Positions 4,737 to 31,654 of a stretch of DNA of 31,654 nucleotides are shown piece by piece; the stretch's first letter is position 1, and each line of letters starts with the position of its first letter. The position numbers and the translations under genes were made by a program. The stretch lies in the IMG/VR virus record IMGVR_UViG_3300025697_000094, positions 1-31,654 of that record. One strand, written 5' to 3'. This stretch comes from a virus. Under the pieces are notes generated by a model. It was given only the letters and a program-made list of their open reading frames with translations, did not search any database and was not told where the DNA came from.

Positions 4737-4834
4737 TGCGTACACAACTTGGTATCATCGAATCGGGGCTGGCAGTTATAATGCTGATCACGGCCCTCGC
4801 AATCTACATCCTTGCCGCCGCGAGTATCATCTAG
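4736..4834 (+). CDS. 32-residue single-span membrane peptide
   Basis: A short open frame starts at an ATG overlapping the TGA of the previous gene by one base (TGATG) and ends at TAG, ten bases before the next start. The product begins MRTQLGIIESG and then runs almost uninterrupted in Leu, Ile, Ala and Val to its end, so it is one transmembrane helix with a very short N-terminal tail. A GGGGG run upstream could act as the ribosome binding site. Gene coupling on both sides favours a real gene over chance. It could assist DNA ejection or lysis; no family can be assigned. Confidence 0.6.
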   Translation: MRTQLGIIESGLAVIMLITALAIYILAAASII

Positions 4835-4844
4835 GGGGACTGAC

Positions 4845-8612: not shown

Positions 8613-8791
8613 GCGAGAAACCGGAGCTACTTATCAGGGTGGATGAACGCACGGAGCGATTGGAGAAGTGGGTGGAGATGCACACATCACACCACAGCCG
8701 GTTATCCATGGCCTTTGTGTCAACGGCTATCTCCATCATCCTGGCCCAAGCGGGGATGATATTTGCACTCATCAAGCTGGCGGGTGCTTAG
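8609..8791 (+). CDS. Small XhlA/holin-like membrane protein
   Basis: This 60-residue protein starts at an ATG overlapping the previous stop (ATGA). Residues 1-30 form a charged helix (RVDERTERLEKWVEMH) and residues 34-58 form one transmembrane span, ending in the short tail KLAGA. This order, a coiled coil followed by a C-terminal membrane anchor, is that of XhlA-type lysis proteins and related holin accessory proteins. It is the last gene of the rightward block, where lysis genes are often found, but no endolysin is next to it. It overlaps the convergent gene by four bases. Confidence 0.7.
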   Translation: MSEKPELLIRVDERTERLEKWVEMHTSHHSRLSMAFVSTAISIILAQAGMIFALIKLAGA

Positions 8792-9828: not shown

Positions 9829-10343
9829 TCTACGTCCTCCCATAAATGTTTCCAAGTCCGATGCTGTACAATATCGGTAGCACAGCTGCGGGATACGTTG
9901 TATGCTTTCGCAAGGTGTGTAATGGTTAAATGGCGCGTATGGCCCACTTGTTCAATTTCTCTAGCCTCACCATCTGTTAACTTGGCGAGTGGGTGATTTT
10001 CGCCTTTACGGCGCAATCCCGGGTGTGTCCCGTGCCCCACAGCGTCTAAGTGGTTGTTAGACCTTGTATCCCACCGTAGATTGTCAACCCTGTTATCTAG
10101 CCGGTCACCGTTGTTGTGACAACACTCCGTACCCTCGGGACAGGGTCCGACGAAGGCTTCCAAGACTAGGCGGTGTATAAGACGCCAGTTGTGCTTACCT
10201 GCACAGCATAAATCCACTCGCAAATATCCGGCATGCGCTTGCGGGGACAACCACCTACCCCTGCGAGCATTCCTCCTAGGCTCACTCCACACTCTACCAT
10301 CGCGGGTGATGGAGTATCCAGGGTACCCTGGTATTGGTCTCAT
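9810..10343 (-). CDS. NUMOD4/HNH homing endonuclease (copy 1)
   Basis: This 177-residue free-standing homing endonuclease has three parts. NUMOD4 covers residues 2-45 (IPGYPGYSITRDGRVWS). The HNH nuclease core lies at 55-91, with H57, H76, N77 and N84 in the IHRLVLEAFVG and ECCHNNGDRLDN motifs. A helix-turn-helix DNA-recognition part lies at 113-165 and ends TWKHLWED. The ATG overlaps the RecG stop by four bases (ATGA). The last codons (TGG GAG GAC) provide the ribosome binding site of the HD gene, whose ATG lies 19 bases before this gene's stop. It belongs to a paralogous set with the genes at 12283, 25313, 27156 and 30740. It looks intact. Confidence 0.92.
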   Translation of the reverse strand: MRPIPGYPGYSITRDGRVWSEPRRNARRGRWLSPQAHAGYLRVDLCCAGKHNWRLIHRLVLEAFVGPCPEGTECCHNNGDRLDNRVDNLRWDTRSNNHLDAVGHGTHPGLRRKGENHPLAKLTDGEAREIEQVGHTRHLTITHLAKAYNVSRSCATDIVQHRTWKHLWEDVECQRQQ

Positions 10344-12304
10344 CCGACATCCCCCAAGTGTAGCACGCCGCCATATCGCGACTTGAGCTCGGATAGGTTC
10401 GCCACACGTACGGGGTCATCCGCATCTAGGCACAGCACTGTAGCAGCCGCTGATCGGGCCTCAATCATTAGGTCAAAATCTTCAACCATGTTTGCTATCC
10501 TGAAATTCGGGAGACCGTGCTGCTCCGTGCTTATTAGGCTCCCCGGGCCACGCATCTTGAGGTCTTGTTCAGCTAGTAAAAACCCATCGTTGGTCTGCTC
10601 CATTGCCTTGAGCCGGGCCCGCCCCTCACCGTTCTCGGTATCAGAGAGGAGGAAGCAGTACGATTGCTTGTCACTGCGCCCCACGCGGCCACGCAACTGA
10701 TGGAGGGTGGCGAGGCCAAAGCGCTCTGCCCCCTCCACGACCATCACCGTAGCGTTGGGGTTGTCGACGCCTACCTCGATAACCGTGGTGGCTACCAGTA
10801 TCTGGAACGTCTCGGCCTTGAAGTCGTCAGCGACCCGCTTCTTATCTGCCGGGTGCATCTGGCCATGTAGCATGCCGACACCCGCACTAGGGTATCTACT
10901 TCGATACTCCTCGACAACTTCCTCAACTGCCCGCATCTCGTCATCAAGGGCCTCGATACGTGGGCAGACGACGTAGACTTGGTTGTCGTGCTCAAGTTCG
11001 TATTCAACACGGGCGTGGATATCCACCACGTCGCTTACCCACTCTGTATATACGGGCAACCGTCCCGGCGGCATTGTCTTGATCACGCTCACATCCAGGT
11101 CACCGAACGCGGTCATTGCAATGGTGCGGGGGATCGGCGTAGCCGACATAAGGAGTACGTGAGGGTTGCCGTGCTTACGCAGGGCCGCACGTTGCTCGAC
11201 GCCGAATTTATGTTGCTCATCAATGATGGCTAAGCCAAGGTTGCAAAGCTGTAACCCGTCACTGAGTATCGCAGTGGTCCCTATAACAACATCAGGGTCA
11301 CCCGCTACCCGTTTATCCGGGCCTACCGAAACCTTGGTGAGCCCGCCCTGAACCAGGCGGCACCTCATCCCCGCCGCATCAAAGAACCCCTTGATCGACC
11401 GATAGTGTTGCTCCGCGAGCACCTGTGTGGGGCACAGGATGGCAGTCTGCCCGCTGTTGCAAGCCATCAGCATGGCAGCGTAGGCGGCAACAGCTGTCTT
11501 GCCTGATCCGACGTCCCCTTGCAGTAGGCGGTTCATGGAGCCACGCTGGCACATATCAATTAGTACCTGTCTGGTGGCCCCCAGTTGATCTGGTGTAAAA
11601 TCAAACGGGAAATACCGTTCCGGGTCCTGCATCATCGGCACACACTTCACGTTCGTCGGCTCCAACTCTCGCCGCTGCTTCCGCACGGCCAGGGCCAGCT
11701 GCATGTAGAACAACTCGCAGTACTTCTCGTGCTGCACTGCCCTGTCATACTCTGCCTGATCAGCCGGATTGTGTAGGGCCCGTACAGTGTCGTCAGCTAG
11801 GTGCAGCGTCAACTTAACAAACCGGCTGATCTCCCTGCTCGTGATACCGCTGGTCACCGGGTATGTCACCATGCGTAGGTCAGACAGGTTGGGCTCGCCT
11901 TTCATCGGCAGCGTGCGGAACTCTGGGTTGACGAGCCCCCCAGGGGCTACGGTACCCGTGGCCATGATGCGGATGTTCTTATGGAGTTTAGCGTGCAGGT
12001 AGGCTGCATTGTACCATGTGATAGAGATGATGCCGCCCAGGTCGCTGTTGAGTATGCCATCAAACTTACCACTATACTGCCCCTGCACATAGCTAAGTGT
12101 ACCCACCACAGTCACCTGGTCACCATACCCTATGGTAGCCAGCGGGACAGGCTCCGGCGCAAACTCCACCCGCGTGGGGTAGTGACTCTGCAGGTCCTTC
12201 ACGGTTTCTATTCCGAGCCGCTTGAGGGCTTTGGCTTTTCTAGGGCCAACACCAGTAAGGCCAGCCACGGGTGATTTAAGAGTTAATTGTGTAGATGTCC
12301 CCAT
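10340..12304 (-). CDS. recG: RecG-type ATP-dependent DNA helicase
   Basis: The 654-residue product is nearly the size of bacterial RecG (E. coli, 693). It has a helix-hairpin-helix-like GVGPRKAKALKRLGI at 18-32, an OB/wedge region at about 50-150, Walker A GDVGSGKT (263-270), DEQH box (362-365), SATPIPRT motif III (387-394), motif V (TTVIEVGVDNPNAT, 506-519) and motif VI QLRGRVGRS (536-544). The C-terminal RGPGSLISTEQHGLP matches the RecG translocation (TRG) motif. RecG reverses stalled forks and branch-migrates Holliday junctions. All helicase motifs look intact. The start ATG 12304 has GGGGAG four bases upstream, inside the overlapping HNH gene. It is flanked on both sides by HNH genes. A full-size RecG is uncommon in phages. 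Confidence 0.93.
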   Translation of the reverse strand: MGTSTQLTLKSPVAGLTGVGPRKAKALKRLGIETVKDLQSHYPTRVEFAPEPVPLATIGYGDQVTVVGTLSYVQGQYSGKFDGILNSDLGGIISITWYNAAYLHAKLHKNIRIMATGTVAPGGLVNPEFRTLPMKGEPNLSDLRMVTYPVTSGITSREISRFVKLTLHLADDTVRALHNPADQAEYDRAVQHEKYCELFYMQLALAVRKQRRELEPTNVKCVPMMQDPERYFPFDFTPDQLGATRQVLIDMCQRGSMNRLLQGDVGSGKTAVAAYAAMLMACNSGQTAILCPTQVLAEQHYRSIKGFFDAAGMRCRLVQGGLTKVSVGPDKRVAGDPDVVIGTTAILSDGLQLCNLGLAIIDEQHKFGVEQRAALRKHGNPHVLLMSATPIPRTIAMTAFGDLDVSVIKTMPPGRLPVYTEWVSDVVDIHARVEYELEHDNQVYVVCPRIEALDDEMRAVEEVVEEYRSRYPSAGVGMLHGQMHPADKKRVADDFKAETFQILVATTVIEVGVDNPNATVMVVEGAERFGLATLHQLRGRVGRSDKQSYCFLLSDTENGEGRARLKAMEQTNDGFLLAEQDLKMRGPGSLISTEQHGLPNFRIANMVEDFDLMIEARSAAATVLCLDADDPVRVANLSELKSRYGGVLHLGDVG

Positions 12305-12810
12305 CGTTCTCCCCGTAGTATCTTCCCGATTGTCTCCCGGCGTACTCCGGTTAGTCTAGCCAGGACATATTGTGATACTCTGTATTTTTCCCTAGCGTCA
12401 CGCACTGCACGTACCTGTACGGCAGTGAGAGTAGCCCGCCCATTCTGCTCACCTTGTGCTCGTTGGATCCTGCTACCTGCCAATGGGCACGTCCCATGCT
12501 TAACAGCATCTTTCATATTATTAGAGTGAGTATCCCACCTCAAATTCTCAATTCTGTTATCAGCAGGATTACCATTGTTGTGGCAACACTCCATACCATC
12601 AGGGCGGGGACCTACGAATGCTTCAAGAACTAGACGGTGGATATACCGATTACACCTTACACCATAGCGGCGGAGGCATACGAACAGGTGCCCGCTATCT
12701 ATACGCTTGGGTTTAAGGTATCGGTTCGACAGGGCGGACCACACGCGACCATCCGTGGTCACGTAGTAATCCTTAAAACCTGGTGCTCGGCAGTCATCTG
12801 GTGTAACCAT
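12283..12810 (-). CDS. NUMOD4/HNH homing endonuclease (copy 2)
   Basis: This 175-residue protein has NUMOD4 (PGFKDYYVTTDGRVWSAL) near its N-terminus and an HNH core with IHRLVLEAFVG and ECCHNNGNPADNRIENLRWD. The C-terminal helix-turn-helix begins near ATLTAVQVRAVRDAREKY and ends ERWGHLHN. The ATG lies 11 bases past the stop of the lipoprotein gene, with GAGGT upstream. Its last 22 bases overlap recG: the GGA GAA codons give the recG ribosome binding site, and the CGA TGG codons contain the recG ATG. Nothing suggests inactivation. Confidence 0.92.
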   Translation of the reverse strand: MVTPDDCRAPGFKDYYVTTDGRVWSALSNRYLKPKRIDSGHLFVCLRRYGVRCNRYIHRLVLEAFVGPRPDGMECCHNNGNPADNRIENLRWDTHSNNMKDAVKHGTCPLAGSRIQRAQGEQNGRATLTAVQVRAVRDAREKYRVSQYVLARLTGVRRETIGKILRGERWGHLHN

Positions 12811-13619: not shown

Positions 13620-15887
13620 CTAACAAAGGTACTGTTCCATAGCACTAGGCAGGATCTGCAAGCCCTCGTATATATACTCACGCTTACCCACATTCATAAC
13701 CCGCTTACGTGCCAACGGGTGCGGCAGACCCTGCAGCTTCATACCAAACGCGATGCGGCTGAGGTTGCTGCGGGTGCCCGTCGCAGTACACCAAGCCAGC
13801 CACACCTCGTACAGGGTGTTGCAGTTGGTCTGGTGTTGGAAGAACTCGGCGCCAGCGTATCGCTTACAGCACTCACTGATCATCAGGCCGATGGGGTTGG
13901 TGAGTTCAGCTATGCCGTCGAGGTGTCTGCGTGACGCGTCGGGCAGTGTGAACTCATCGTTCTCCAGTAGACGCCGCAGGCCTTCTATGGCCCACAACGC
14001 TATACCCGGCAACTCTGTCATCAGCTTGCTGTCCAGCGTGCGATCAGGCCTGTTGAGCCTGTAGTTGTTCGAGAAGTACAATAGGTTGGTACGGCCAGCC
14101 ATCGCCTGGCTGGCATCGTCAAATGGCAGCACCTCGTTGGCGATATACATCAAGCGGCAGAACAACCTGGCGTCAACAGCCGCCTTATATAGCCGCCGCA
14201 CACTCATTGTGTCACCACCTGTGATCGCCTTCCACGTCTGCAACAGCTTATCAATGTCGCCCCGGTTGGTATCGCGGCTCTCTGACATGATGGCCACGTA
14301 CTTGTTGAGCAACGCAGCGGGGCCAAACACATCCTTGAAACTGTTGGTGTTGGCACCAGTGGTGCGGGCTTTGCCGAGTAAGGCTTCGATAACCCGGCCC
14401 ACTGTTGACTTGCCTGATCCCGGGACACCGAAGAAAAACATCATCGACTGCATGTGGTTGGAGGCGATCATACAGTAGCCCATCCACTCTTGCAGTAGGT
14501 CAATGCACTCCTGATCCCCGTTGAATATGTCAGCGACGAACCACTCCCACAATTTGCACACCGCATGCGGGTCATAGTTGTATGGCAGTGTTGTGGTCAA
14601 GAAAATGTCCGGCGTCATGGGGACAAGTTGTCGCTCCTTGACATAGTAGATACCATTGTTGAACACGACAGCACGGGCCAAGTCCATGCTCTTACCCGTC
14701 TTTAGGATCAGTGGCTCGTGTGCAGCTTCGTCCGCGACGATGTTACAATAGGCCTTGGCCGCGTCTGTGATGTTGCCCATGAACTTGACATCGGGCTTGA
14801 TCTCCACGATCTTCGTACCATCCTTAGCAGGCGTTGCAATTTGTCGGGAGCCGTACCACTCATACCACCAGCCGCGTAGCTCTGCCTTGCTGATCATGCG
14901 GTACTTGTTGACGTCCCACTGGTAGAAGTCATCGTGCAGACACTGGATGATACGCTGTCCCCGATAGACCTGGCAGTCCTGAACCCATGCCCGCACCATG
15001 TCATACGGGGCGTCACTGTCCAGCACCAGCGTGTCTTTGCGGGAGTCGCCTACCCCCGTGACGTGCTGCTCGAATATCTCTGCAGTGGGTGCCCAAGACC
15101 GCAGGTCCTTAAACGGCTCGGGTGGTAGTACCTTCACTACCGTTTTACAAACTGGCAGCAGCGTTTGAAACAGGCCTTCAAGGCTCGCCTGACCGACGCC
15201 ATGGGCGTCACGGTCTCCGACGATGATAACTTCACGGCCCGACACCAGCCCGGTGAGGGACGATGCTCCCGCACCCGCTTGCGGTATACTGACCGCAACG
15301 TAACCCAGCGAGATCGCAACCAGCGCATCAGACGCACCCTCAGTAATAACAGTAGGCCTATCCGATGCAGGTAGTACCTGTACTCTCCGTCCTGTACCGC
15401 CAGTACCGGTGTGCCTGTGATGTAGGTACCCAGAACCCGGAATCTGCTTCGCTGCGCCAGTGGGCGTTCGTACGCATATGACCCCAGCAGGGTTCTCGGG
15501 GTTTTCGTTAGAAACCAGGCACCCATCATTTTCCCGCCCGCAAATTGGACATGGCACCTCTGCAGCACTGACCCGGAGAAAGCTACGGGCTTCCACTGAT
15601 CCATCCTTCTGTCGTACTCCCAGACATTCATAAGACAGCCCTCTCTTTGAACCCTTCCACGCCAACTTCCTGCCATTCTCATACCGTTTAGTAAGCCCGG
15701 TCACCTTACCCGTTTCATCTCGCTCAGGGAAAATCCACGCATCCTCATCAGGGTAGAACCCCACACCGAGTTTGTCTATAGCTTCCACTGTCACCGCCGG
15801 GCCAAGCTGCTCAGCCAAGACTTCTGCCATGGCTGGTCGCATGTTGGCCCGCAATGATATGAATAAGTTGTCGAAGTCCACGGGCAT
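13620..15887 (-). CDS. Toprim primase / SF3-type helicase (D5-like)
   Basis: This 755-residue replication protein has its start at ATG 15887, with GGAG six bases upstream. Its parts in order are: a zinc motif, CPIC (113-116) with C123 and C138; a Toprim primase core, with E183 in TEGASDALVA and DRD at 225-227; a D5-type linker region; then an SF3-like AAA+ helicase with Walker A GVPGSGKST (487-495), an acidic IMSESRD motif (533-539) and a downstream sensor Asn in MYIANEV (580-586). Such fusions both prime and unwind DNA at phage forks, partnering here with the family A polymerase encoded upstream in the same transcript. All key residues are present. It is immediately followed by the zinc mini-protein gene. 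Confidence 0.93.
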   Translation of the reverse strand: MPVDFDNLFISLRANMRPAMAEVLAEQLGPAVTVEAIDKLGVGFYPDEDAWIFPERDETGKVTGLTKRYENGRKLAWKGSKRGLSYECLGVRQKDGSVEARSFLRVSAAEVPCPICGRENDGCLVSNENPENPAGVICVRTPTGAAKQIPGSGYLHHRHTGTGGTGRRVQVLPASDRPTVITEGASDALVAISLGYVAVSIPQAGAGASSLTGLVSGREVIIVGDRDAHGVGQASLEGLFQTLLPVCKTVVKVLPPEPFKDLRSWAPTAEIFEQHVTGVGDSRKDTLVLDSDAPYDMVRAWVQDCQVYRGQRIIQCLHDDFYQWDVNKYRMISKAELRGWWYEWYGSRQIATPAKDGTKIVEIKPDVKFMGNITDAAKAYCNIVADEAAHEPLILKTGKSMDLARAVVFNNGIYYVKERQLVPMTPDIFLTTTLPYNYDPHAVCKLWEWFVADIFNGDQECIDLLQEWMGYCMIASNHMQSMMFFFGVPGSGKSTVGRVIEALLGKARTTGANTNSFKDVFGPAALLNKYVAIMSESRDTNRGDIDKLLQTWKAITGGDTMSVRRLYKAAVDARLFCRLMYIANEVLPFDDASQAMAGRTNLLYFSNNYRLNRPDRTLDSKLMTELPGIALWAIEGLRRLLENDEFTLPDASRRHLDGIAELTNPIGLMISECCKRYAGAEFFQHQTNCNTLYEVWLAWCTATGTRSNLSRIAFGMKLQGLPHPLARKRVMNVGKREYIYEGLQILPSAMEQYLC

Positions 15888-17915: not shown

Positions 17916-19157
17916 CTAACCAAGTTCAATTTCTTCGATTATCGGAATCTGCGGTACTGACCCCCACCCCAGCTTGTATCCGGGCGGGGCCTTGTCCCCA
18001 GGGCGGTACTTGATGCCCGACCGGCACAGGTCACAGAACTCGCACCGATACGTGGCGGTGCATGCACTCCTGTTCTCTGACCATAGGTCGTTCTTCTCTA
18101 CGTAGCGAATCTGCTGCGAGATACGGGGTAGCTTGTACCCGAAGTCACGCAACTCCTGATCCGTCCTGGCAACGACCCGCTGCTCGTAGTAGAAATCGGG
18201 CCGCTCTGTGATGTCTACCAAGAGCCGGGCACCGTACATCGCCGGTGTCTCGCGGATGGCAATGGCTGTCTTGCCTGGTACTAGGATCGCCCGGTCACCG
18301 TTGATAGTATACCCGGGCTGACCCTCGTGCGCGTCAGCACTCACCTCAAACTCCTCATTGCAATACGTACCCTCCTCAATCAGCGTCTTCGTGTCCTTCT
18401 GGCTCAATGCCTTTGGCCTGATCGTGGGCTTGTGCCACACATCACAGAACGCACCAGCTATCGGTGTGTCGCTGGCCTTGACACCATACGGCTCAAGCAG
18501 CCCCTTCGCCTGTGCCAGGCGGGCCCCGTAGATATACCCGGTGACCTGATCCCCATCCGTCAGCGCATCCCAGTAGTCAGCATTGAGCGACCGTGCCGTG
18601 GACTTACGCTCCCAAACGTACACCAGTCCCGTAGCGATCTCACGAACCAGCCGGTCGACCTTGCACACGAACACGACCTTTGGCATGCGCCGCTTGCTGC
18701 CCTGTTTCATCACTGGGATCTCAAACTTGATCTCGCTACCGATCACCTCGAACCTATTCTCCGTGCTGGCATAGTACCACTGGTGCCCGATCAGGGAGTA
18801 GAGTAGGTTGGTACGCTCGATTGCCCAGTCCTCAGATGTCACGTTGTCGGGCGTCTTGGCGTACTGGTCGTTCAGATACCGCGTTGCTATTGCCATGCGG
18901 TCCTCGCCCACACGGCCAGTGCCGTCGCAGATGAAGCAGACGGGGTCAACTTCTTCTCGTCGCTGGCATCGGGGACACAGCGACCCGGGCTTTAGTTCGA
19001 GGTGCTCATGGCAGGCGTGCCATCGGCCCCCGACCCGTAAGCTCTCCTTGTCTTTGTCCGCTTCCAGGCCATACACGTACCCTAGTTGGTACCGGCGCTG
19101 GCAGCCGAGGAAGCTGTTGTTGGAGCTTGCTGAAAGTCTGAGTTCACGTAGTGCCAT
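17916..19157 (-). CDS. PD-(D/E)XK nuclease, Cas4/AddB-like, with Fe-S-type cysteines
   Basis: This 413-residue protein has Cys19 in a FLGCQRRYQLGYV motif, then an inserted zinc-ribbon-like unit with CPRC (61-64) and CFIC (74-77). The nuclease core follows: D168 (VCKVDRL), E183-R-K185 (VYVWERKS) and Q204 (GDQVTGYIYGARL). A C-terminal cysteine cluster is C366, C372, C375 and C378 (RCEFCDLC). Cys19 plus the C-terminal cluster match the split 4Fe-4S ligands of Cas4 and AddB nucleases. It is probably an exonuclease that makes 3' single-strand tails for the Sak4-like protein. The ATG overlaps the methyltransferase stop by one base (TAATG), with GGAGG upstream. The zinc insert is unusual. Confidence 0.87.
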   Translation of the reverse strand: MALRELRLSASSNNSFLGCQRRYQLGYVYGLEADKDKESLRVGGRWHACHEHLELKPGSLCPRCQRREEVDPVCFICDGTGRVGEDRMAIATRYLNDQYAKTPDNVTSEDWAIERTNLLYSLIGHQWYYASTENRFEVIGSEIKFEIPVMKQGSKRRMPKVVFVCKVDRLVREIATGLVYVWERKSTARSLNADYWDALTDGDQVTGYIYGARLAQAKGLLEPYGVKASDTPIAGAFCDVWHKPTIRPKALSQKDTKTLIEEGTYCNEEFEVSADAHEGQPGYTINGDRAILVPGKTAIAIRETPAMYGARLLVDITERPDFYYEQRVVARTDQELRDFGYKLPRISQQIRYVEKNDLWSENRSACTATYRCEFCDLCRSGIKYRPGDKAPPGYKLGWGSVPQIPIIEEIELG

Positions 19158-20029
19158 TACTTTACCTCCGGTACTGGTGGTGCCGTCTCAGCGAGACGAC
19201 GGCCCATAAGTTCTATTTGACTTTCACGTATATCAATGCTGATCGCGTCACGCCCGTGCTTCTTGGCAACCGCCGCCGTTGTACCGCTTCCACCAAAGGG
19301 ATCAAGTACCGTGCCCCCGGGTGGGCAGAAGGACCGGATCATAAACTCAGCAAGATACTCGGGGAACGGGGCCTCGTTCTCGTGAGCTAGCTTGGAGCCC
19401 ATCAAACCACCACCAGCCTTACATCGGATCACAACACCAGGATTGGCTTTAGCGTAGGCTTTCTGTTCACAATGATCTCGACTGCCATCTTGTTTCCTAT
19501 TCGAGAACGGTCCGCCTGCTCGCCTGGTTTTCTCGTGTTTAACGTCACCATTGACATACCCGTGCGGAGTATGTCCACTAAAGCAGCCATATTTTGGTGT
19601 GTGGCCCATCGCCGTGTTGTCTGACCAGGGCAATCGTCCACCGTTCGTAGCACACACGATGAACTCCAGGTCATGTCGCAGCCAGTCGGGACCACCGCTA
19701 CCGGGGATGCCCACGCGATAGTAGTAGGGGCCTTCTCGTACAGTGATGCCCGCCCGGTGGAGATCCGCGATCAGCAGGGCTGGGGTGCAGGACCATGCGA
19801 ACTTGCGAGTGCGACCAGCTACGACAAAGGCCACGAGGCCCTTACTCACCCGAAGCGATTGCTTGTAGACCCCGACCATCCAGTCCACCCAGTCCTGGCC
19901 CTTGAGTTTGAAGTCGATACCATAAGTACGAGCATCCTCGTAGGGTGGGCTGCCGAACACTAGGTCCACTGATTGCTCGGGTAGTGTGGGCAGCACCTCA
20001 AGGCAGTCACCCTGTATGGTCTCTATCAT
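19157..20029 (-). CDS. DNA methyltransferase, N4-cytosine/N6-adenine type
   Basis: This 290-residue protein begins MIETIQGDCLEVLPTLP. The catalytic motif IV is SPPY (27-30), and the S-adenosylmethionine motif I is DPFGGSGTT (243-251), near the C-terminus, so it is a beta-class (motif IV first) enzyme. SPPY is most often seen in N4-cytosine methylases, while DPPY marks most N6-adenine enzymes, so N4-cytosine modification is favoured but not proven. No specificity subunit or classic restriction enzyme lies beside it; the VRR-NUC nuclease gene overlaps its start. Likely uses are protection from host restriction or marking of phage DNA. Confidence 0.92.
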   Translation of the reverse strand: MIETIQGDCLEVLPTLPEQSVDLVFGSPPYEDARTYGIDFKLKGQDWVDWMVGVYKQSLRVSKGLVAFVVAGRTRKFAWSCTPALLIADLHRAGITVREGPYYYRVGIPGSGGPDWLRHDLEFIVCATNGGRLPWSDNTAMGHTPKYGCFSGHTPHGYVNGDVKHEKTRRAGGPFSNRKQDGSRDHCEQKAYAKANPGVVIRCKAGGGLMGSKLAHENEAPFPEYLAEFMIRSFCPPGGTVLDPFGGSGTTAAVAKKHGRDAISIDIRESQIELMGRRLAETAPPVPEVK

Positions 20030-24742: not shown

Positions 24743-25316
24743 CAGTGCGTCTCCGAGTATTGAATGCCTTGTGTACCACGATCCGGGCAGCCACCCACTC
24801 CTCCGTTTCTAGGGCCCGCCTGTAGTCATCATTCCACCACCTCGGAACGAGTATCGCATTGCCCCCCGCGTCACGCCACCGATCCACGTTCTTGGACGAG
24901 TCATCAATCAGCACCGAGCCCGGTGTCCTGGCCAGCGTTTCCTTGGGTGCCGTCATTATGATAAGTTGCTTTTCCAACCCCGGTATGTTTTTCCGCACCC
25001 AGGCAACCTTACCGCTGGCCGACATGCAGTTTGGCATCGGCGTTGTCAATAGCCGGACGTTCTCCATGCCGAAGGCGGCTACCACGTGAGCGAGGATTGC
25101 TTTGCCATCGTGCATCCACGGGAGGTCATACCACAGGTCGAAGTCACATAGGGCGTCAATATCCTCAAATGACTTGCCGATCTCGTTGTGCCAGTGCCAC
25201 CCGCGACGGCCCAGTTTATATGGCCACGTCTTGTAGTCATGTTCTATGCCGAGCCGTGCGTGTACGCCCGCGTTCCAGGAGGCTAGAACACCGTCAATAT
25301 CGAGCCATGCAATCAT
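24735..25316 (-). CDS. HAD-superfamily nucleotidase-like phosphatase
   Basis: I choose ATG 25316 (MIAWLDIDGVLASWN, 193 residues), five bases after GGAGG; the ATG-like start at 25328 lies upstream of that site. HAD motif I is D6-x-D8 (LDIDGV), motif II is T91/T92 (LLTTPMPN), motif III Lys is K125 (APKETLA), and motif IV is D138-D139 (VLIDDSSKNVDRW). The plan matches 5'(3')-deoxyribonucleotidases, which turn dNMPs into deoxynucleosides. Together with the MazG-like and HD enzymes it suggests active control of the nucleotide pool. Its ribosome binding site lies inside the HNH gene upstream. Confidence 0.85.
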   Translation of the reverse strand: MIAWLDIDGVLASWNAGVHARLGIEHDYKTWPYKLGRRGWHWHNEIGKSFEDIDALCDFDLWYDLPWMHDGKAILAHVVAAFGMENVRLLTTPMPNCMSASGKVAWVRKNIPGLEKQLIIMTAPKETLARTPGSVLIDDSSKNVDRWRDAGGNAILVPRWWNDDYRRALETEEWVAARIVVHKAFNTRRRTDG

Positions 25317-25810
25317 ATACTCCTCCATATAGAAGCGTGTCGCTCCCTATTTATAATCTGTGATACTTTCTGCTGATGTACCCCGTACTGCTCCCCAACT
25401 TCTTTCTGGGTGAACAGCCCGGTCTTATAGGTGTAAATCATCTGTCGAATTTGCTGCTCAGTTAATTTGCAGTTAGTATGACCCGGCCCTTGCGGCCACG
25501 TCCCGTGCTTCTGTGAGTCTGCTCTGTTTGCCTTTCTTGTATCCCACCTCAGGTTCTCAAGTCGGTTGTCGTCGCGGTCCCCATTGTTGTGGCAACACTC
25601 CATACCGTCTGGGCATGGGCCAACATAGGTTTCCAGGACCAGGCGGTGGATCATACGGGGGCGTGACCTACCATCCCTGCGGAGCACAACAAATAGATAC
25701 CCGGCACCGCATCTACCGGCTTTCAATACCTTACTGGATCTGTCAGAGTATACAGACCCGTCCTCGCCTATGTGGTACCCCATAAAATCTGGTATAGGTG
25801 TCCGAGTCAT
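25313..25810 (-). CDS. NUMOD4/HNH homing endonuclease (copy 3)
   Basis: This 165-residue protein has NUMOD4 (IPDFMGYHIGEDGSVYSDRS), an HNH core (IHRLVLETYVG, ECCHNNGDRDDNRLENLRWD) and a C-terminal helix-turn-helix (LTEQQIRQMIYTYKTG to YGVHQQKVSQIINR) ending ASIWRSI. The ATG lies about 12 bases after the stop of the 44-residue membrane peptide gene, with GGGAG upstream. The final codons TGG AGG AGT ATA TGA contain the ribosome binding site and, by a four-base overlap, the ATG of the HAD gene. It appears intact. Confidence 0.92.
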   Translation of the reverse strand: MTRTPIPDFMGYHIGEDGSVYSDRSSKVLKAGRCGAGYLFVVLRRDGRSRPRMIHRLVLETYVGPCPDGMECCHNNGDRDDNRLENLRWDTRKANRADSQKHGTWPQGPGHTNCKLTEQQIRQMIYTYKTGLFTQKEVGEQYGVHQQKVSQIINRERHASIWRSI

Positions 25811-26928: not shown

Positions 26929-27171
26929 CTAAAGTGTGGGGATCGCAGGGATTTCTACTTCCGATTGCCCGGATATCTCACGTTTGATCTTGTCGGACCA
27001 CTCACTGGGGTGCCGGGTAATCTGCCTTTTTACATGGCTCAGTATCTGCTCTTGTATACGCTTGCTAATTTCGTATGCCCTGGACAGCCCGTGCGTAGCA
27101 ATTAGAGCTGTACTTGTTGTGGTTGCTATTCTGTGAATTGGTATATCTGTAGCGGCTAGTTTCTTGCCCAT
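26929..27171 (-). CDS. Hypothetical protein, paralogue of the gene at 27741
   Basis: The start is ATG 27171 (MGKKLAATDIPIHRIATT), five bases after GGAGG; that site lies inside the upstream HNH gene's last codons. The 80-residue protein shares its first 39 residues with the gene at 27741: both read (L/V)A-x-(T/A)D-(I/L)PIHR(I/V)ATT-x-ST-x-LIATHGL-x-RAY. The second half differs, here ending basic and polar (HVKRQITRHPSEWSDKIKREI). The pair looks like a tandem duplication split by HNH copy 4. Function unknown. Confidence 0.72.
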   Translation of the reverse strand: MGKKLAATDIPIHRIATTTSTALIATHGLSRAYEISKRIQEQILSHVKRQITRHPSEWSDKIKREISGQSEVEIPAIPTL

Positions 27172-27725
27172 AGGTGCCTCCAAGTTTGGTGTAGGGCAAT
27201 GTTAGAGATAGTCGATTTGCTGGTGTGGTAAACTTCCGCCAGGTCTTTACGGGGTATCCCGGCGCGTCGAAGGTACTCAATCCAACGCACTTCCGTTTCG
27301 GTGAGGGTGGTGTTACCGTGTTGTTCGCCTGTAGGTCGCACTAAATTTGGACTAAGGAGACTACAGGTCCCGTGTTTCACGGCATCCCGGGCGTTCCCTT
27401 TTCGCATGTCCCACCTAAGATTTTCGGCTCGGTTGTCTGTCTTGATCCCGTTGTTATGACAGGCCTCCATACCGGGTGGGCAGGGGCCAACGAAAGTCTC
27501 TAAGACTAGGCGGTGGACGTTTTTATTGGTGTGTTTTCCATCTGTGCATAGCGTAACCCTAGGGTAGCCACACCTATCATTACCCGCTCTTAGCCACCTG
27601 CCATGGATACTGCACCCTGTGCCCCGACGCGGCTTAGACCACACGCGCCCGTCATTGGTGATCTCATAATCAGGAAAGCCCCCGATAGGTACAGCTACCT
27701 GCATATGCCGCTTTCCCCAGATCAT
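27156..27725 (-). CDS. NUMOD4/HNH homing endonuclease (copy 4)
   Basis: This 189-residue protein is read from ATG 27725, seven bases after GGAGG. NUMOD4 (GGFPDYEITNDGRVWSKPRR) is followed by the HNH core (VHRLVLETFVG, EACHNNGIKTDNRAENLRWD) and a C-terminal helix-turn-helix (LTETEVRWIEYLRRAG to YHTSKSTISNIAL) ending TWRHLWARN. Here the second core residue is Ala-Cys-His rather than Cys-Cys-His. The codons TGG AGG CAC CTA TGG hold the ribosome binding site and ATG of the next gene; the overlap is 16 bases. It lies between two paralogous small genes. Intact. Confidence 0.92.
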   Translation of the reverse strand: MIWGKRHMQVAVPIGGFPDYEITNDGRVWSKPRRGTGCSIHGRWLRAGNDRCGYPRVTLCTDGKHTNKNVHRLVLETFVGPCPPGMEACHNNGIKTDNRAENLRWDMRKGNARDAVKHGTCSLLSPNLVRPTGEQHGNTTLTETEVRWIEYLRRAGIPRKDLAEVYHTSKSTISNIALHQTWRHLWARN

Positions 27726-27926: not shown

Positions 27927-28041
27927 ACCAGTTCTCTTTTCTCGCACGTATAGCCTGGGCAATATCCTGCAAAGCGTGTGCAATATTGGTACACCCATAG
28001 TCTAGTATCAAGGCTGCAATGATTACGCTTAACCAGGTCAT
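27907..28041 (-). CDS. 44-residue membrane peptide
   Basis: ATG 28041 overlaps the stop of the upstream gene (ATGA), with AAAGGAGAGG just before it, and the frame ends TGA at 27907. The product starts MTWLSVIIAALILDYGC, one membrane span, then has an amphipathic helix with Ala, Gln and Arg (IAHALQDIAQAIRARKE). It overlaps the next gene by 20 bases. No family is recognised. Confidence 0.62.
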   Translation of the reverse strand: MTWLSVIIAALILDYGCTNIAHALQDIAQAIRARKENWYDQASS

Positions 28042-28328
28042 ACCTCTCCTTTGGTCTCTTCAAGTAGGGTATCGACATCTCGCTTCAGGGCCGACGCTGT
28101 GTTGTAGTCATACATACCCATCGTTGCGGAAGCGTAGCACCCACATCTCTCCAATATCGCCACCAGCCGATAGTAGAGGTTGCAGGCTATTAATATCTCT
28201 GCAATCCTACTTAATTCGCAGTCCCCAAGGTCATGCTCAGCATACACCTGAAAGACCTCACAGCCATCGGTATCGTATACAATGAGACTATTTGCAGCGT
28301 CCTGGTCTGCTTTGTACGGTGTGTTCAT
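28038..28328 (-). CDS. Hypothetical phage protein, 96 residues
   Basis: ATG 28328 lies seven bases after GGAGG. The product starts with a beta-rich part (NSLIVYDTDGCEVFQVYAEHD) and continues with a helical part (AEILIACNLYYRLVAILERC). This order recalls a widespread small phage protein that reads along the lines of ...DADG-x-x-(V/I)-A...A-x-LIAAAPELLEAL, known in many phages without function. It is a probable divergent member. Four cysteines (30, 44, 56, 69 region) are scattered, not paired. Confidence 0.68.
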   Translation of the reverse strand: MNTPYKADQDAANSLIVYDTDGCEVFQVYAEHDLGDCELSRIAEILIACNLYYRLVAILERCGCYASATMGMYDYNTASALKRDVDTLLEETKGEV

Positions 28329-28540
28329 CTCTGCGCCTCCAAAAGCAAATCCATACCCAAGTTCAGTATCTGGTCCCGCGTGAACTGTATCCTCACCGGG
28401 GAGGGGTTAGCGTGCGTTGCCTTAAGCCGTTTACTCCCGCATGTTGGGCATGTCATGTGAGCAGCTAACGATGTTATGCTGCTCCGCACCCGCGACTCCC
28501 CACAGTCCAAACATTTCCATGTAGTCGTTCCATTAAACAT
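28325..28540 (-). CDS. Zinc-ribbon protein, 71 residues
   Basis: ATG 28540 follows GGAGT at about nine bases. The motifs WKCLDCGES (8-16) and MTCPTCGSKR (29-38) give two C-x2-C pairs about 20 residues apart, a classical zinc ribbon, followed by a helix (RDQILNLGMDLLLEAQR). It is the first gene behind a near-consensus promoter at 28554-28582. A DNA- or RNA-polymerase-binding early protein would fit, but that is inference. Confidence 0.75.
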   Translation of the reverse strand: MFNGTTTWKCLDCGESRVRSSITSLAAHMTCPTCGSKRLKATHANPSPVRIQFTRDQILNLGMDLLLEAQR

Positions 28541-28553
28541 AGCAGCTTACTCC

Positions 28554-28582
28554 ACTATACCACAATTTGGTCTCGGTGTCAA
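28554..28582 (-). promoter_or_regulatory. Sigma70-type promoter (leftward)
   Basis: Read on the - strand: -35 TTGACA (28577-28582), a 17-base spacer, and -10 TATAGT (28554-28559). The -35 is perfect and the -10 matches five of six. Transcription should start about seven bases further left, upstream of the zinc-ribbon gene at 28325, and it would serve the genes below it. Confidence 0.8.
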
Positions 28583-28597
28583 GGACTTTCTTGAAAA

Positions 28598-28651
28598 TAG
28601 CGTAGTTATGGGTAGGCGGCTGGAGGCGTCCGCCCACCAATGAGTACGCTA
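28598..28651 (-). terminator. Candidate terminator or structured RNA before the 28554 promoter
   Basis: TAGCGTA (28598-28604) and TACGCTA (28645-28651) form a perfect 7-pair outer stem. An inner stem pairs GGTAGGCGG with CCGCCCACC, with one mismatch. On the leftward strand it is followed by TTTTC. It begins at the stop codon of the upstream gene and sits directly before a promoter, an arrangement typical of a terminator-promoter junction. The T-tract is short, so termination may be partial. Confidence 0.4.
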
Positions 28652-28996
28652 CGAGCGTTTACGTTTCCGATCCAGCTTGCGCAGGTAGTGATAGAACGCT
28701 ATGGGCTCGTTGTTCCAACTCCGCCCGGGTGCCTCACAGTTGAAGTCCGGGTCCACCGCGCGGCCGGGACAATGTTCGCAGCATCCATGCTCACCAGGAT
28801 CAGCGATACCACCCTTTCGTTCATTTACCTCACAGAAGAAGCAGGTACAAGATAGCCTCATCCTAGGGTGGTGTCGCTGCATCCACGCTCGTTTCAGTGT
28901 GCCACTGTTGACCAAAGTAGACCCGGCCCGCACTGTTGCAACAAAGTCCCACGCTGCCAAACACTCTTTCCACACGTTATCGGTTGTCCATTTCAT
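28649..28996 (-). CDS. Hypothetical cysteine-rich protein
   Basis: The start is ATG 28996 (MKWTTDNVWKECLAAW, 115 residues), about seven bases after GGGAG; a TTG five codons upstream would include that site. Residues 50-85 carry a cysteine set: SCTCFFCEVNE, then CCEHCPGR, then a further Cys in DFNCEAPG. This resembles phage proteins with a (C-x2-C)2 knuckle and suggests one or two zinc sites. The C-terminus is basic (RKLDRKRKRS). A nucleic-acid contact is plausible; function unknown. Confidence 0.72.
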   Translation of the reverse strand: MKWTTDNVWKECLAAWDFVATVRAGSTLVNSGTLKRAWMQRHHPRMRLSCTCFFCEVNERKGGIADPGEHGCCEHCPGRAVDPDFNCEAPGRSWNNEPIAFYHYLRKLDRKRKRS

Positions 28997-29045
28997 GTCG
29001 TGCTCTCCCAATTAAGCCTGTGTGAGGCGGCACTGGCGCGTCGTG

Positions 29046-29276
29046 CTAGTCTTTAACCCGCCCGTCTCCGTCCAGCTGGAACCCTAGGCCCGGGTCGACA
29101 GAGCCACGCTTGACCATCCTGCCAGATTCGTAGATAGTGGCAATATAGCCCCGGTCCACTCGGTTGCCGTCCTCGTCCACCGCGACAAGATCGACGCAAC
29201 CATCGCCCTGCCCCAACTTCAACCTTACCACTGGCCCTTCCGGTTCAGTCTTTTGATACACTTTGATCCTTGGCAT
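29046..29276 (-). CDS. Hypothetical beta-rich protein, 76 residues
   Basis: ATG 29276 lies after AAAGGAG and is the first gene below the strong promoter at 29309-29337. The sequence (MPRIKVYQKTEPEGPVVRLK, then DLVAVDEDGNRVDRGYIATI) is a run of short beta strands with Asp/Gly turns, ending in LDGDGRVKD. A small beta-barrel or sheet protein is likely. No family is recognised. Confidence 0.72.
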   Translation of the reverse strand: MPRIKVYQKTEPEGPVVRLKLGQGDGCVDLVAVDEDGNRVDRGYIATIYESGRMVKRGSVDPGLGFQLDGDGRVKD

Positions 29277-29308
29277 GTTTTCTCCTTTTCTAAGTTAGTG
29301 TTGACTAC

Positions 29309-29337
29309 ATTATACACTATATCGGCGATGAGTGCAA
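29309..29337 (-). promoter_or_regulatory. Strong sigma70-type promoter (leftward)
   Basis: Read on the - strand: -35 TTGCAC (29332-29337), spacer 17 bases, -10 TATAAT (29309-29314), preceded by TG as in extended -10 promoters. It is a near-perfect match. The start point should be near 29302, giving a leader of about 25 bases before the gene at 29046. Confidence 0.85.
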
Positions 29338-29353
29338 GGGAAATCTTGGTTAT

Positions 29354-29752
29354 TTATCTAGTTTCCCTCTTATCAATGTGCTGGCAGTTATTCGCGTAGT
29401 ACGACTGCCCCCATTCACGATAGCACGTCTCGCAGACATTCAACGCCCGGCACGCGGCTCCGTAATAGGGACTACCGCCATCGTCCAGCAGGCGGAACCA
29501 ACCGTAACTCCAGGGCGTGTATTGTGTCTTGCCAACCATAGCAACTATGGCCTCTTTGTACAGGGCCAGCCAGGCCACGTCCCGCTGCTCGTTCCATCCT
29601 CCGTTTGCGAACTTGCATCCGTCGTCCAACACTTTCGGGAAATCCATGTCGAGTTGCGCTAGTTTCTTGTGCGTCTCTGCGTGGTCGGAGTACCTTTGCG
29701 GATCTTCAAATAGGGCTCCACACTGCTCGCATTTATCTACGGTCTGTTTCAT
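29354..29752 (-). CDS. Protein with N-terminal C2H2-like zinc finger
   Basis: This 132-residue protein begins MKQTVDKCEQCGALFEDP and then has RYSDHAETH, giving C8-x2-C11-x12-H24-x3-H28, the spacing of a classical C2H2 finger. The middle is Trp-rich (DVAWLALYKEA, PWSYGWFRLL). Near the end, CETCYREW and NNCQH could form a second metal site. GGAG lies about ten bases before the ATG. Such phage fingers may bind DNA or host proteins; no specific function is assignable. Confidence 0.75.
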   Translation of the reverse strand: MKQTVDKCEQCGALFEDPQRYSDHAETHKKLAQLDMDFPKVLDDGCKFANGGWNEQRDVAWLALYKEAIVAMVGKTQYTPWSYGWFRLLDDGGSPYYGAACRALNVCETCYREWGQSYYANNCQHIDKRETR

Positions 29753-29838
29753 GGCCTTATGCTCCTTTCAGATACTCATGTGTGAGCCCCATCGGCCCAG
29801 GCCCGGGGGCGGGATCAGCCGCCGCCCGGCGCGGGTCG

Positions 29839-30126
29839 TTAGAATGTGAACCCCAATGATTCAACGTCGGCCTGGAATGCCTCCAGCAAAGCAGGCAACC
29901 GGGCTTCGAGTCGCTCTTTCAATCCAGGGGCGGTAAGGTCCTCGTCGGTGGCATCGGGCCAGTACTTTCTATTTCCCAACAGCGTTATTGCGAGTGTGCT
30001 ACCAGTATCCCGTAGCCACTTCAGTGCCTGTTGGTCATATTCACTGTTGTGCTTCTCCGGCTTGATTGTCTTGTGTCCAGTATACATAATATTGCCGTCA
30101 ACCCGTGTCGTCGCGTTAGTTTTCAT
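29839..30126 (-). CDS. Hypothetical protein, 95 residues
   Basis: ATG 30126 follows GGGGGTAGAG. The N-terminus is polar and basic (TGHKTIKPEKHNSEY) and residues 30-95 are helical (QQALKWLRDTGSTLAITLLG, then GLKERLEARLPALLEAFQADV). No metal site or membrane span is present. The 86 bases after its stop (29753-29838) are very GC-rich, with no recognisable gene or convincing terminator. Confidence 0.68.
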   Translation of the reverse strand: MKTNATTRVDGNIMYTGHKTIKPEKHNSEYDQQALKWLRDTGSTLAITLLGNRKYWPDATDEDLTAPGLKERLEARLPALLEAFQADVESLGFTF

Positions 30127-30143
30127 CGTCTCTACCCCCTAGG

Positions 30144-30407
30144 CTATTCCGAATACTTCCCTACATAGGTGTATTTGTAATACTGTTCAGGATGAATCTC
30201 TCCATCCTTGCAGAGCCCATCCGTCCAGTTGTTGAATTGCTCATCGATCATAGCCTGATCATCCCGGTGGTCGTGGAGCCAATCCGCATGCTCAGCGTCG
30301 AATCGGTCTGACAACTCCTTTTCACAAGTGATGATTGACGGGTGTATGCATCGCTCTGATATGGCGTACAGTTCTACCATTTCCACTAATTCTACGTTGT
30401 TCCACAT
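30144..30407 (-). CDS. Hypothetical acidic protein, 87 residues
   Basis: ATG 30407 lies close after GAGGGGGAT. The product is acidic, with helical segments (VELVEMVELYAISERC, CEKELSDRFDAEHADWLHD) and an aromatic tail (YYKYTYVGKYSE). Acidic small early proteins of phages often mimic DNA or bind host enzymes; here that is only a possibility. No family is recognised. Confidence 0.66.
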   Translation of the reverse strand: MWNNVELVEMVELYAISERCIHPSIITCEKELSDRFDAEHADWLHDHRDDQAMIDEQFNNWTDGLCKDGEIHPEQYYKYTYVGKYSE

Positions 30408-30424
30408 TTCTCTATCCCCCTCAC

Positions 30425-30592
30425 TTAGGTTAAATCAACTCGCAGGCCGCACTTGTGGCAATCATCCCACTCGCCCCGTTTCAGGCCATGCACCTCGTTA
30501 CTGTGATCGCAGTCCGTGCGTACAATCTTGCGGAGTCGGGCTTTTCCTCTTGTGGGCTCAAATTGTCTTATCCCCCTCCTTGTAGGGCACAA
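30425..30592 (-). CDS. Possible small zinc-ribbon protein (start uncertain)
   Basis: An open frame ends at TAA 30425 with a protein-like end: TDCDHSNEVHGLKRGEW then DDCHKCGLRVDLT. Cys, His and C-x2-C spacing suggest a zinc site like those of other small proteins here. The only canonical start is TTG 30592, without a clear ribbon of purines before it; GGAGG lies inside the frame a few bases after it. A non-standard start nearer that GGAGG is possible. The frame or start may be affected by a mutation. Confidence 0.4.
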   Translation of the reverse strand: MCPTRRGIRQFEPTRGKARLRKIVRTDCDHSNEVHGLKRGEWDDCHKCGLRVDLT

Positions 30593-30647
30593 TCGCCAGT
30601 GTTGCGCCGTGGGGACGGCGCTGGGCTGGGGATAGTGTCAGTCAAGA

Positions 30648-30761
30648 TTACCGTTTGCGTCGACTGGCCTTGAGTGATTCCGCAATCTGTTCATCGGCCG
30701 ACTGATTACAGTATACACTATGATCGGGTGGAAACTTGACTATATGCGTTCTATCAGCCGT
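30648..30761 (-). CDS. Possible 37-residue protein with ACG start, overlapping HNH copy 5
   Basis: An open frame ends at TAA 30648. It has no ATG, GTG or TTG, but ACG at 30759-30761 lies five bases after GGAG. Read from there, the product is MADRTHIVKFPPDHSVY followed by CNQSADEQIAESLKASRRKR, a convincing protein sequence. The GGAG and ACG lie inside the HNH frame (GTG GAG AAT CTA CGG), exactly as the other HNH genes overlap the starts of their neighbours. Either a rare ACG start is used, or an ATG was changed to ACG and the gene is now poorly expressed. Confidence 0.42.
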   Translation of the reverse strand, partial: TADRTHIVKFPPDHSVYCNQSADEQIAESLKASRRKR

Positions 30762-31054
30762 AGATTCTCCACTTGGTTGTCCGTGCGGATACCGTTGATA
30801 TGCTTCACAACGTTGTATGGGTTAAAACGGCCCACATGGGCCTCGTAGACCAGCCGATGAACCAGACAGGTCTTTGGCTTACCAAACCGGCTTAGCGTCA
30901 CCCCCCGATAGCCGCCCGGGGTGATAAAACCATGCAGCGGGCGATTGCGGGCAAAGCTCCACACCATACCGGTATCCGTCACTCCGTAGTTCGGGTAGCC
31001 GTGGATACTGACGGGTGATATCAGGCGGTCCTTGTAGAGTATGAACTGTTCCAT
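30740..31054 (-). CDS. Short NUMOD4/HNH endonuclease (copy 5), lacks C-terminal helix-turn-helix
   Basis: I choose ATG 31054 (MEQFILYKDRLI, 104 residues), eight bases after GGAG; the longer reading from 31105 would run through the promoter. NUMOD4 (IHGYPNYGVTDTGMVWSFAR) is followed by the HNH core (VHRLVYEAHVG, VVKHINGIRTDNQVENLRL). Unlike copies 1-4 it stops right after the core (LIERI) and has no recognition helix-turn-helix. That may be natural or a truncation; a shorter specificity or loss of homing ability is possible. Its end overlaps the possible ACG-start gene by 22 bases. Confidence 0.85.
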   Translation of the reverse strand: MEQFILYKDRLISPVSIHGYPNYGVTDTGMVWSFARNRPLHGFITPGGYRGVTLSRFGKPKTCLVHRLVYEAHVGRFNPYNVVKHINGIRTDNQVENLRLIERI

Positions 31055-31076
31055 GCGCTGTTTCTCCTTTCTTTTT

Positions 31077-31105
31077 AGTTTAGCATATTCGGGGAGGAAA
31101 GTCAA
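31077..31105 (-). promoter_or_regulatory. Sigma70-type promoter (leftward)
   Basis: Read on the - strand: -35 TTGACT (31100-31105), spacer 17 bases, -10 TAAACT (31077-31082). The -35 matches five of six and the -10 four of six. It sits 23-50 bases upstream of HNH copy 5 and next to the tandem 19-base repeats, so a protein bound to those repeats could control it. Confidence 0.65.
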
Positions 31106-31108
31106 GGT

Positions 31109-31146
31109 AAATCGTTAGGAGGTTCGGAAATCGTTAGGAGGTTCGG
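31109..31146. repeat. Two perfect tandem 19-base repeats
   Basis: AAATCGTTAGGAGGTTCGG occurs at 31109-31127 and again, with no spacer, at 31128-31146. A 15-base inverted copy, CGACCTCCTAACGAT, follows at 31164-31178, so one direct copy and the inverted copy can form a dyad. The repeats begin four bases from the leftward promoter's -35. They look like binding sites (iterons or operators). Confidence 0.85.
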
Positions 31147-31178
31147 GGCTTTTGGGGGGTGTTCGACCTCCTAACGAT
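31129..31178. repeat. Inverted repeat partner of the 19-base element
   Basis: ATCGTTAGGAGG of the second direct copy pairs with CCTCCTAACGAT at 31167-31178. The arms are separated by a G/T-rich loop that includes CTTTTGGGGGG. It could form a cruciform or an RNA hairpin. Confidence 0.7.
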
Positions 31179-31186
31179 CGGGCAAT

Positions 31187-31258
31187 TACCCTAACCTTGT
31201 TTTTCAAAAGCAGGTTTTTGGGGGTGTAAAGGCTGAACTACCCTACCCTAACCTTGTT
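31187..31258. repeat. 15-base direct repeats
   Basis: TACCCTAACCTTGTT occurs at 31187-31201 and 31244-31258, 57 bases apart (start to start). The sequence CCTAAC is shared with the 19-base repeat (reverse strand CGTTAGG), so both may carry the same core recognition word. Confidence 0.7.
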
Positions 31259-31298
31259 CTGAAAACTATTTTCACTTTGGAGAATTGATACCTCCTAA

Positions 31299-31312
31299 TC
31301 CTAACGTTAGGA
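31299..31312. repeat. 14-base perfect palindrome with the shared core
   Basis: TCCTAACGTTAGGA is a perfect palindrome. Its half site CGTTAGGA is the core of the 19-base repeats at 31109-31146. A dimeric DNA-binding protein is the simple explanation. Confidence 0.75.
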
Positions 31313-31439
31313 GATATACTGTTTGAACTGCGGTGTTATACTCTATCTATTTCTTCCTTTAGTCGGGGTAAAGGGGGTAAAAGAGAGTTTATGGTATCTT
31401 CCGGGCTGATTCTTTACCTTGACCTTGTGGTTATCGGTC

Positions 31440-31480
31440 GGGGTAATGGGGTGGTAAATGGGGTGTGGGTTGGGGTAGGG
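31440..31480 (+). other. G-quadruplex-forming motif
   Basis: Four GGGG tracts at 31440-31443, 31448-31451, 31460-31463 and 31472-31475, with loops of 4, 8 and 8 bases, then one more GGG at 31478-31480. All G is on the + strand. It is upstream of the leftward genes and 18 bases inside the noncoding region relative to other repeats. Confidence 0.6.
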
Positions 31481-31556
31481 TGTTAGTTCAAATGACTTTT
31501 TGAGTTATGGCGGGTTCGTGTTACTTTTGGACCCATTCGTATGCGCCACCCCCACT

Positions 31557-31580
31557 AAAAAAGGCCCCTTCCTGGGGCCT
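31557..31580 (-). terminator. Rho-independent terminator (leftward)
   Basis: On the - strand AGGCCCC and GGGGCCT form a perfect 7-pair GC-rich stem with a 5-base loop. A run of six T follows (31557-31562 as A on +). It ends transcripts coming from beyond the right edge and isolates the regulatory region. The reverse direction has no T-tract. Confidence 0.85.
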
Positions 31581-31602
31581 AGCACGCCGCTCAGTGGACG
31601 AT

Positions 31603-31654
31603 CTACCCCAGGTGGTATGCGGGGTGCCTGTATATCTCGCAGCCACCCTTTGTG
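31603..31654 (-). CDS. C-terminal end of a leftward gene (partial)
   Basis: From the right edge a - strand frame reads TKGGCEIYRHPAYHLG then TAG at 31603-31605. The terminator at 31557-31580 follows 22 bases later, which supports this as the end of an operon. Only about 16 residues are visible and other frames are also open, so the call is tentative. Confidence 0.3.
   Translation of the reverse strand, partial: TKGGCEIYRHPAYHLG

Follow-up and report, generated by a model that had tools for sequence, protein, structure and literature searches.

Replication origins of phage-inducible chromosomal islands (PICIs) and Staphylococcus aureus pathogenicity islands (SaPIs) have been published with a two-armed iteron layout and sit directly 3′ of the rep gene (PMC6092414, which also mentions the crr site of phage P4), and the layout has been described as unique to PICI satellites. 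The Rep helicases of SaPIs recognise the origin iterons through their C-terminal domain (PMC7581432). Here, we examined an intergenic element of ~300 bp, at about positions 31187-31477 of the IMG/VR virus record IMGVR_UViG_3300025697_000094, a linear genome fragment of 31,654 bases that was analysed whole and is referred to as the window. As in PICI and SaPI origins, its iterons are opposed (31187 and 31244 versus 31362, 31437 and 31469) around the least stable 120 bp, the presumed initiator is the element's own primase-helicase or Rep, and the iteron word varies between elements; unlike them, the window element heads the early operon of a tailed phage. We consider it highly probable that this element and the unwinding stretch within it are the DNA replication origin of the phage, opened by the phage's own P4-family primase-helicase.

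The locus shares features with three other described systems. Like satellite phage P4, with its alpha protein and origin sites, the window has a primase-helicase of family TIGR01613, and the model of its C-terminal winged helix matches the P4 origin-binding domain (1ka8). P4 requires a second element, crr, kilobases away, whereas only one iteron cluster was found in the 31.6 kb of the window, where the single further match lies at 5996 and ~17 kb of the phage genome is outside the record. The O-protein origins of lambda and Shiga toxin (Stx) phages likewise have iterons adjoining an AT-rich region, but there the iterons lie inside the replication gene and on one side of the AT-rich stretch, and the initiator is of a different family from that of the window. 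SaPI5 Rep and Cch2 of the staphylococcal cassette chromosome mec (PMC7581432) are D5_N-type helicases as well, and the window protein matches PDB 7ola by sequence, but SaPI5 Rep and Cch2 belong to satellite or cassette elements with the origin directly downstream of the gene. As for a DnaA-dependent origin, clustered DnaA boxes were not found in the window: it holds no exact box TTATNCACA, and near matches were not in excess.

Opposed iterons around the least stable DNA

The homologous region is present in six contigs, namely the window, G016, G002, G001, G003 and G005. The relatives were gathered by DNA polymerase, phosphoesterase and sequence-pattern searches, a set from which records very close to the window may be missing; against annotated phages, no DNA similarity was found for window positions 28000-31654. 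The element holds five 9-bp iterons of the consensus GTYRGGGTA, which point one way on the left and the other way on the right of the least stable 120 bp of the record (Table 1), and one copy occurs elsewhere in the window; G016 has five copies in the region and none elsewhere. When the window, G016 and G002 were taken together, all seven iterons of one side had one orientation and all five of the other side the opposite one (7:0 versus 0:5, Fisher P 0.0013), and in three genomes a second iteron followed 74-75 bp beyond the copy that touches the core. The A-rich core (ACTAA... AGAAATA) beside C-rich repeats was common to five of the six contigs and weakly present in G005.

The hexamer GTTAGG, picked from the window alone, occurred in the region 7 times in the window, 8 times in G016 and 5 times in G001, against expectations of 0.04-0.11 (0.08 for G016 and 0.04 for G001), and CCTAAC/GTTAGG was the most enriched hexamer across five genomes. 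The iteron word itself drifts, with GTTAGAGTA in G003 and GTTAGGGAG in G001. GTTAGG clusters as a feature common to all relatives were rejected, since at least three copies in 300 bp were found in 5 of 134 loci, three of these being one contig. In G001 alone, the presumed origin is accompanied by two perfect DnaA boxes, TTATCCACA, separated by 11 bp (L009:4842-4861).

Instability was computed by nearest-neighbour energies, and the least stable 120 bp fell in the homologous intergenic region in all six contigs. The initial annotation had proposed, for 31109-31312, an origin binder or a repressor acting at several sites beside a promoter. Of these, an origin binder next to a promoter has good support, but the conserved parts differ from those it had stressed: the relatives keep the TACCCTAAC sites and not the 19-base CGTTAGGA repeats, and they also keep sites further right, which it had not listed, and the easily melted segment between. 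Three of the iterons, at 31362, 31437 and 31469, lie outside its coordinates.

Candidate initiator and distant phages

The helix-turn-helix proteins at 8788 and 26464, initially put forward as binders, gave no match in the PHROGs, Pfam and NCBIfam libraries used, which were run on some of the window genes. Sequence and modelling suggest the P4-family primase-helicase encoded at 13620-15887 as a better candidate. It matched TIGR01613 with 162 bits against a curated cut-off of 108.7 (E 1.4e-47), its best PDB match by sequence was 7ola (E 1.2e-7), which we take to be the SaPI5 primase-helicase, and its sequence suggests that a TOPRIM-type primase part is present. The C-terminal 116 residues were modelled with a predicted local distance difference test (pLDDT) score of 86, and the structures matching the model included the RFX DNA-binding domain at Z 9.8 and, at Z 9.0 over 84 residues with a root mean square deviation of 2.9, the P4 origin-binding domain 1ka8; both outranked most other winged helices listed, in a fold that is common. 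A full-length primase model, in which the ATPase part was too weak, was not used.

From the sites, their orientation, the instability minimum, the conservation and the fold of the candidate binder, we infer a course of binding, melting, bidirectional start and regulation. The primase-helicase would bind the five iterons via its C-terminal winged helix and, because the sites face each other across the least stable DNA, the helicase would assemble as two head-to-head complexes across the ~120-bp stretch 31244-31363. The helicases would melt this stretch and load outward both ways, the phage primase and DNA polymerase would act next, and the adjacent leftward promoter would start the early operon carrying the replication genes. 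At the CGTTAGGA repeats and the palindrome, a regulator or additional initiator molecules might tie promoter firing to origin use.

Among distant phages, the least stable 120 bp is also intergenic in KPP25, Vibrio phage 1.032.O and Artemius. Inverted copies of phage-specific words flank the minimum in KPP25, Vibrio phage 1.032.O, L028 and L048, and inverted words surround it less strikingly in L053, L071 and L108; in each of these, 0 of 100 shuffles reached the score, and the distant relatives with such inverted iterons have homologous replication proteins. Within one intergenic stretch, GTCTGGGTA occurs eight times in L042 and four times in L045, and GTCTGGGTA/GTCTAT sites surround an AT-rich stretch. 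The widened pattern GTYNGGGTA was set after L042 had been seen, so these clusters are supporting and not independent; three control patterns gave no cluster, and the recognition helices of L042 and L045 resemble those of L028 and L048.

A whole-genome scan for direct and inverted 6-mers was noisy and was replaced by the tests around the instability minimum. The C-rich or GTTAGG stretches of L102 and L099 were rejected on their differing layout, and a tandem array of period 18 in L081 was set aside because, judged from its sequence, it resembles a coding hexapeptide repeat. Two short unrelated viral contigs without a recognised primase (L185:2189-2243 and L186:183-237) each have an AT-rich stretch with a GTTAGGGTA array next to it, and these places are possibly origins of other phages.

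Several points weigh against reading the window element as an origin. The consensus GTYRGGGTA was refined after several of the sequences had been seen, and AT-rich stretches go with promoters too. G002, the closest relative by DNA polymerase in which the region is present (77% identity), has two iterons only, which lie on the same side, and its contig breaks off 294 bp from the core; G005 has no clear GTYRGGGTA site. GC skew, suggested earlier as a check, was weakly favourable in G001 and G005, two related contigs of genome length whose minima lie ~3.4 kb (G001) and ~1.7 kb (G005) from the element, but skew tracks gene direction as well as replication. Most distant loci, many of them maybe without an origin, did not pass the inverted-iteron test, and the pattern was not seen in phage 9NA, which has a homologous primase. 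Finally, the window element lies ~15 kb from the primase-helicase gene and not immediately 3′ of it, as in PICIs and SaPIs; because of this distance from the presumed initiator gene we do not call it a PICI origin, and by analogy it would work like a PICI or P4 origin.

We give an even chance to the broader proposal that two-armed iteron origins are a general class among tailed phages with P4-family primase-helicases, that they may lie many kilobases from the initiator gene, that the iteron word changes along with the initiator's C-terminal winged helix, and that satellites may have acquired their origin from such phages. A layout best known from phage satellites is seen here in several free-living phages, and the proposal ties the origins of the two together. 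The origins of most lytic phages are unmapped, and the combination of the genome's least stable DNA, oppositely oriented flanking iterons and a P4-family primase-helicase would be a transferable rule, which predicts origins in cultured phages, e.g., Pseudomonas phage KPP25 and Vibrio phage 1.032.O.

The 19-base repeats and alternative readings

All the repeats named in the initial annotation are present where it placed them, and they are indeed explained by no gene, only spurious short open reading frames overlapping the intergenic stretch. In 300 dinucleotide shuffles, the longest perfect direct repeat averaged 8.8 bases and never exceeded 12, whereas the stretch itself has one of 19; for inverted matches, 30 shuffles gave no more than 12 bases, against 14 observed. 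CCTAAC is the most locally clustered among the 2,069 hexamers of the window (7 in 300 bp). A search of the record for the core, as had been advised, located five copies of CGTTAGGA, every one inside 31113-31312 and none scattered elsewhere. Even with 3 mismatches allowed, the 19-mer had no copy in six relatives, and an exact search of viral contigs for its core returned five isolated single matches only, with no repeats around them. Where the window carries the CGTTAGGA 19-mers, G016 (L154:1-230) has private repeats of its own, ATCCCATAATGGAA, with an inverted copy. The 19-mers and the matching palindrome in the melting stretch, which have CGTTAGGA in common, would be a lineage-specific layer, most likely bound by a regulator or by additional initiator molecules.

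A refinement of the origin reading divides the function, with GTYRGGGTA marking the origin and the CGTTAGGA repeats and palindrome serving a different protein, a lineage-specific regulator. We find this evenly balanced. The 19-mer is missing from all relatives and the iterons are shared, and the palindrome and the 19-mers have in common an 8-base core found nowhere else in the record. On the other hand, both site types contain GTTAGG, and the iterons of G001, GTTAGGGAG, resemble the 19-mer core GTTAGGAGG; given the shared GTTAGG and this likeness, one protein could bind both site types.

That the repeats act in transcriptional control only, as operators of a phage repressor or activator at the leftward early promoter, the AT-rich stretch being promoter DNA, appears unlikely. 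The 19-base repeats, which are not conserved in relatives, stop 3 bases from the -35 hexamer of the promoter-like site, a palindrome and tandem half-sites are typical of operators, and related phages have private promoter-proximal repeats (ATCCCATAATGG in G016 and GTGCGTA in G005). However, the iterons kept in relatives and the stretch of lowest stability are located 80-370 bp upstream of the promoter, with partly fixed spacing, around what is the least stable DNA in the contigs of six phages. Distant phages show the layout again with other words, and no repressor gene was identified among the window genes run against a library.

A genome end or packaging site (cos or pac) is very improbable. 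Four of the six contigs end 180-295 bp from the core (the window at 291 and G002 at 294 bp on one side, and G016 at 294 and G003 at 180 bp on the other), but the ends lie to either side, G016 continues past the locus to the right, G001 and G005 span it completely, no end repeats were found, and a packaging site has no need of inverted iterons flanking a melting minimum. Assembly breaks tend to fall at this locus. Least credible is a structured RNA leader or attenuator folded from the inverted repeats of the leftward transcript, for although folding of the leftward strand of 31109-31345 is better than that of shuffled sequence (z -3.9), the inverted repeats are enough to account for it, the region is upstream of the sole leftward promoter-like site found, the repeats are not kept in G016 or G002, and no Rfam family reached its gathering score (the single match, E 0.23, was a fungal snoRNA).

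Gene neighbourhood

Table 1. Positions of the element, the presumed initiator gene and neighbouring features in the window
Feature	Position	Strand	Remark
P4-family primase-helicase (TIGR01613; D5_N, DUF5906)	13620..15887	-	presumed initiator
C-terminal winged-helix domain, ~residues 665-755	13620..13895	-	candidate iteron-binding domain
HNH endonuclease gene	30740..31054	-	first leftward gene after the element; AAGGAG upstream of ATG
Sigma-70-like promoter TTGACT-17-TAAACT	31077..31105	-	leftward; TG before the -10 hexamer
19-base repeat AAATCGTTAGGAGGTTCGG, copy 1	31109..31127	+	ends 3 bases from the -35 hexamer
19-base repeat AAATCGTTAGGAGGTTCGG, copy 2	31128..31146	+	tandem with copy 1
Inverted partial copy of the 19-base repeat, ATCGTTAGGAGGT	31166..31178	-	perfect over 13 bases
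15-base repeat TACCCTAACCTTGTT	31187-31201, 31244-31258		two copies
Left-arm iteron GTTAGGGTA	31187..31195	-	within 15-base repeat 31187-31201; same motif in G016
Left-arm iteron GTTAGGGTA	31244..31252	-	within 15-base repeat 31244-31258; same motif in G016
Least stable 120 bp of the record	31244..31363	.	presumed DNA unwinding element; bounded by innermost iterons of both arms; 292-411 on the reverse strand
Palindrome TCCTAACGTTAGGA, 14 bases	31299..31312	.	inside presumed unwinding element
Conserved A-rich core ACTAAAGGAAGAAATAG	31347..31363	-	adjoins innermost right-arm iteron
Right-arm iteron GTCGGGGTA	31362..31370	+	abuts A-rich core; copy or variant at exact place in 5/5 aligned genomes
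Right-arm iteron GTCGGGGTA	31437..31445	+	82 bp from core, as in G016; 81 bp in G002
G-rich run, four G3+ tracts	31440..31469	+	G-quadruplex-like, pattern only; overlaps right arm
Right-arm iteron GTTGGGGTA	31469..31477	+	114 bp from core; no counterpart at such distance in relatives
Terminator-like hairpin AGGCCCCAGGAAGGGGCCT + T run	31562..31580	-	ends leftward unit lying right of window

The HNH gene next to the element starts at ATG 31054 and not at the mechanical TTG 31105. The promoter scan found two sites versus 1.2 expected by chance, which is weak alone; the terminator-like hairpin, from a scan with a chance expectation of 2.1, is kept at the same place in G016. The repeats had been placed at the head of the leftward genes, but theirs is not the very first leftward unit, because the leftward hairpin (31580-31562) and contig G016 point to more leftward genes further right. 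G016, with 84% identity in a shared rightward protein, fills the missing portion of the map and places the beginning of the long rightward gene series ~2 kb right of the window end. Among the leftward genes examined are those for a DNA polymerase, a metallophosphoesterase, a PD-(D/E)XK nuclease, an AAA ATPase, the P4-family primase-helicase, a RecG-like helicase and several HNH endonucleases. For the rightward genes at 21-8612, the matches were weak only, and were to virion structural proteins.

Five HNH endonuclease genes belong to one family, phrog_59-like (9810-10343, 12283-12810, 25313-25810, 27156-27725 and 30740-31054), relatives carry related copies at other places, and these appear to be actively spreading homing endonucleases. 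A DNA methyltransferase-like gene at 19157-20029 shares 70% identity with its counterpart in the distant G001 but only 28-41% with those in the closer G002 and G004, which suggests exchange by recombination. The DNA polymerase genes of close relatives contain intein-like in-frame insertions (CLAAGSPVLTDSGY...; L019:7700-8700, L020:8940-9920 and 10280-11180), and across each of them runs a long open frame in a different reading frame, of 253 and 208 codons, which may encode a homing endonuclease.
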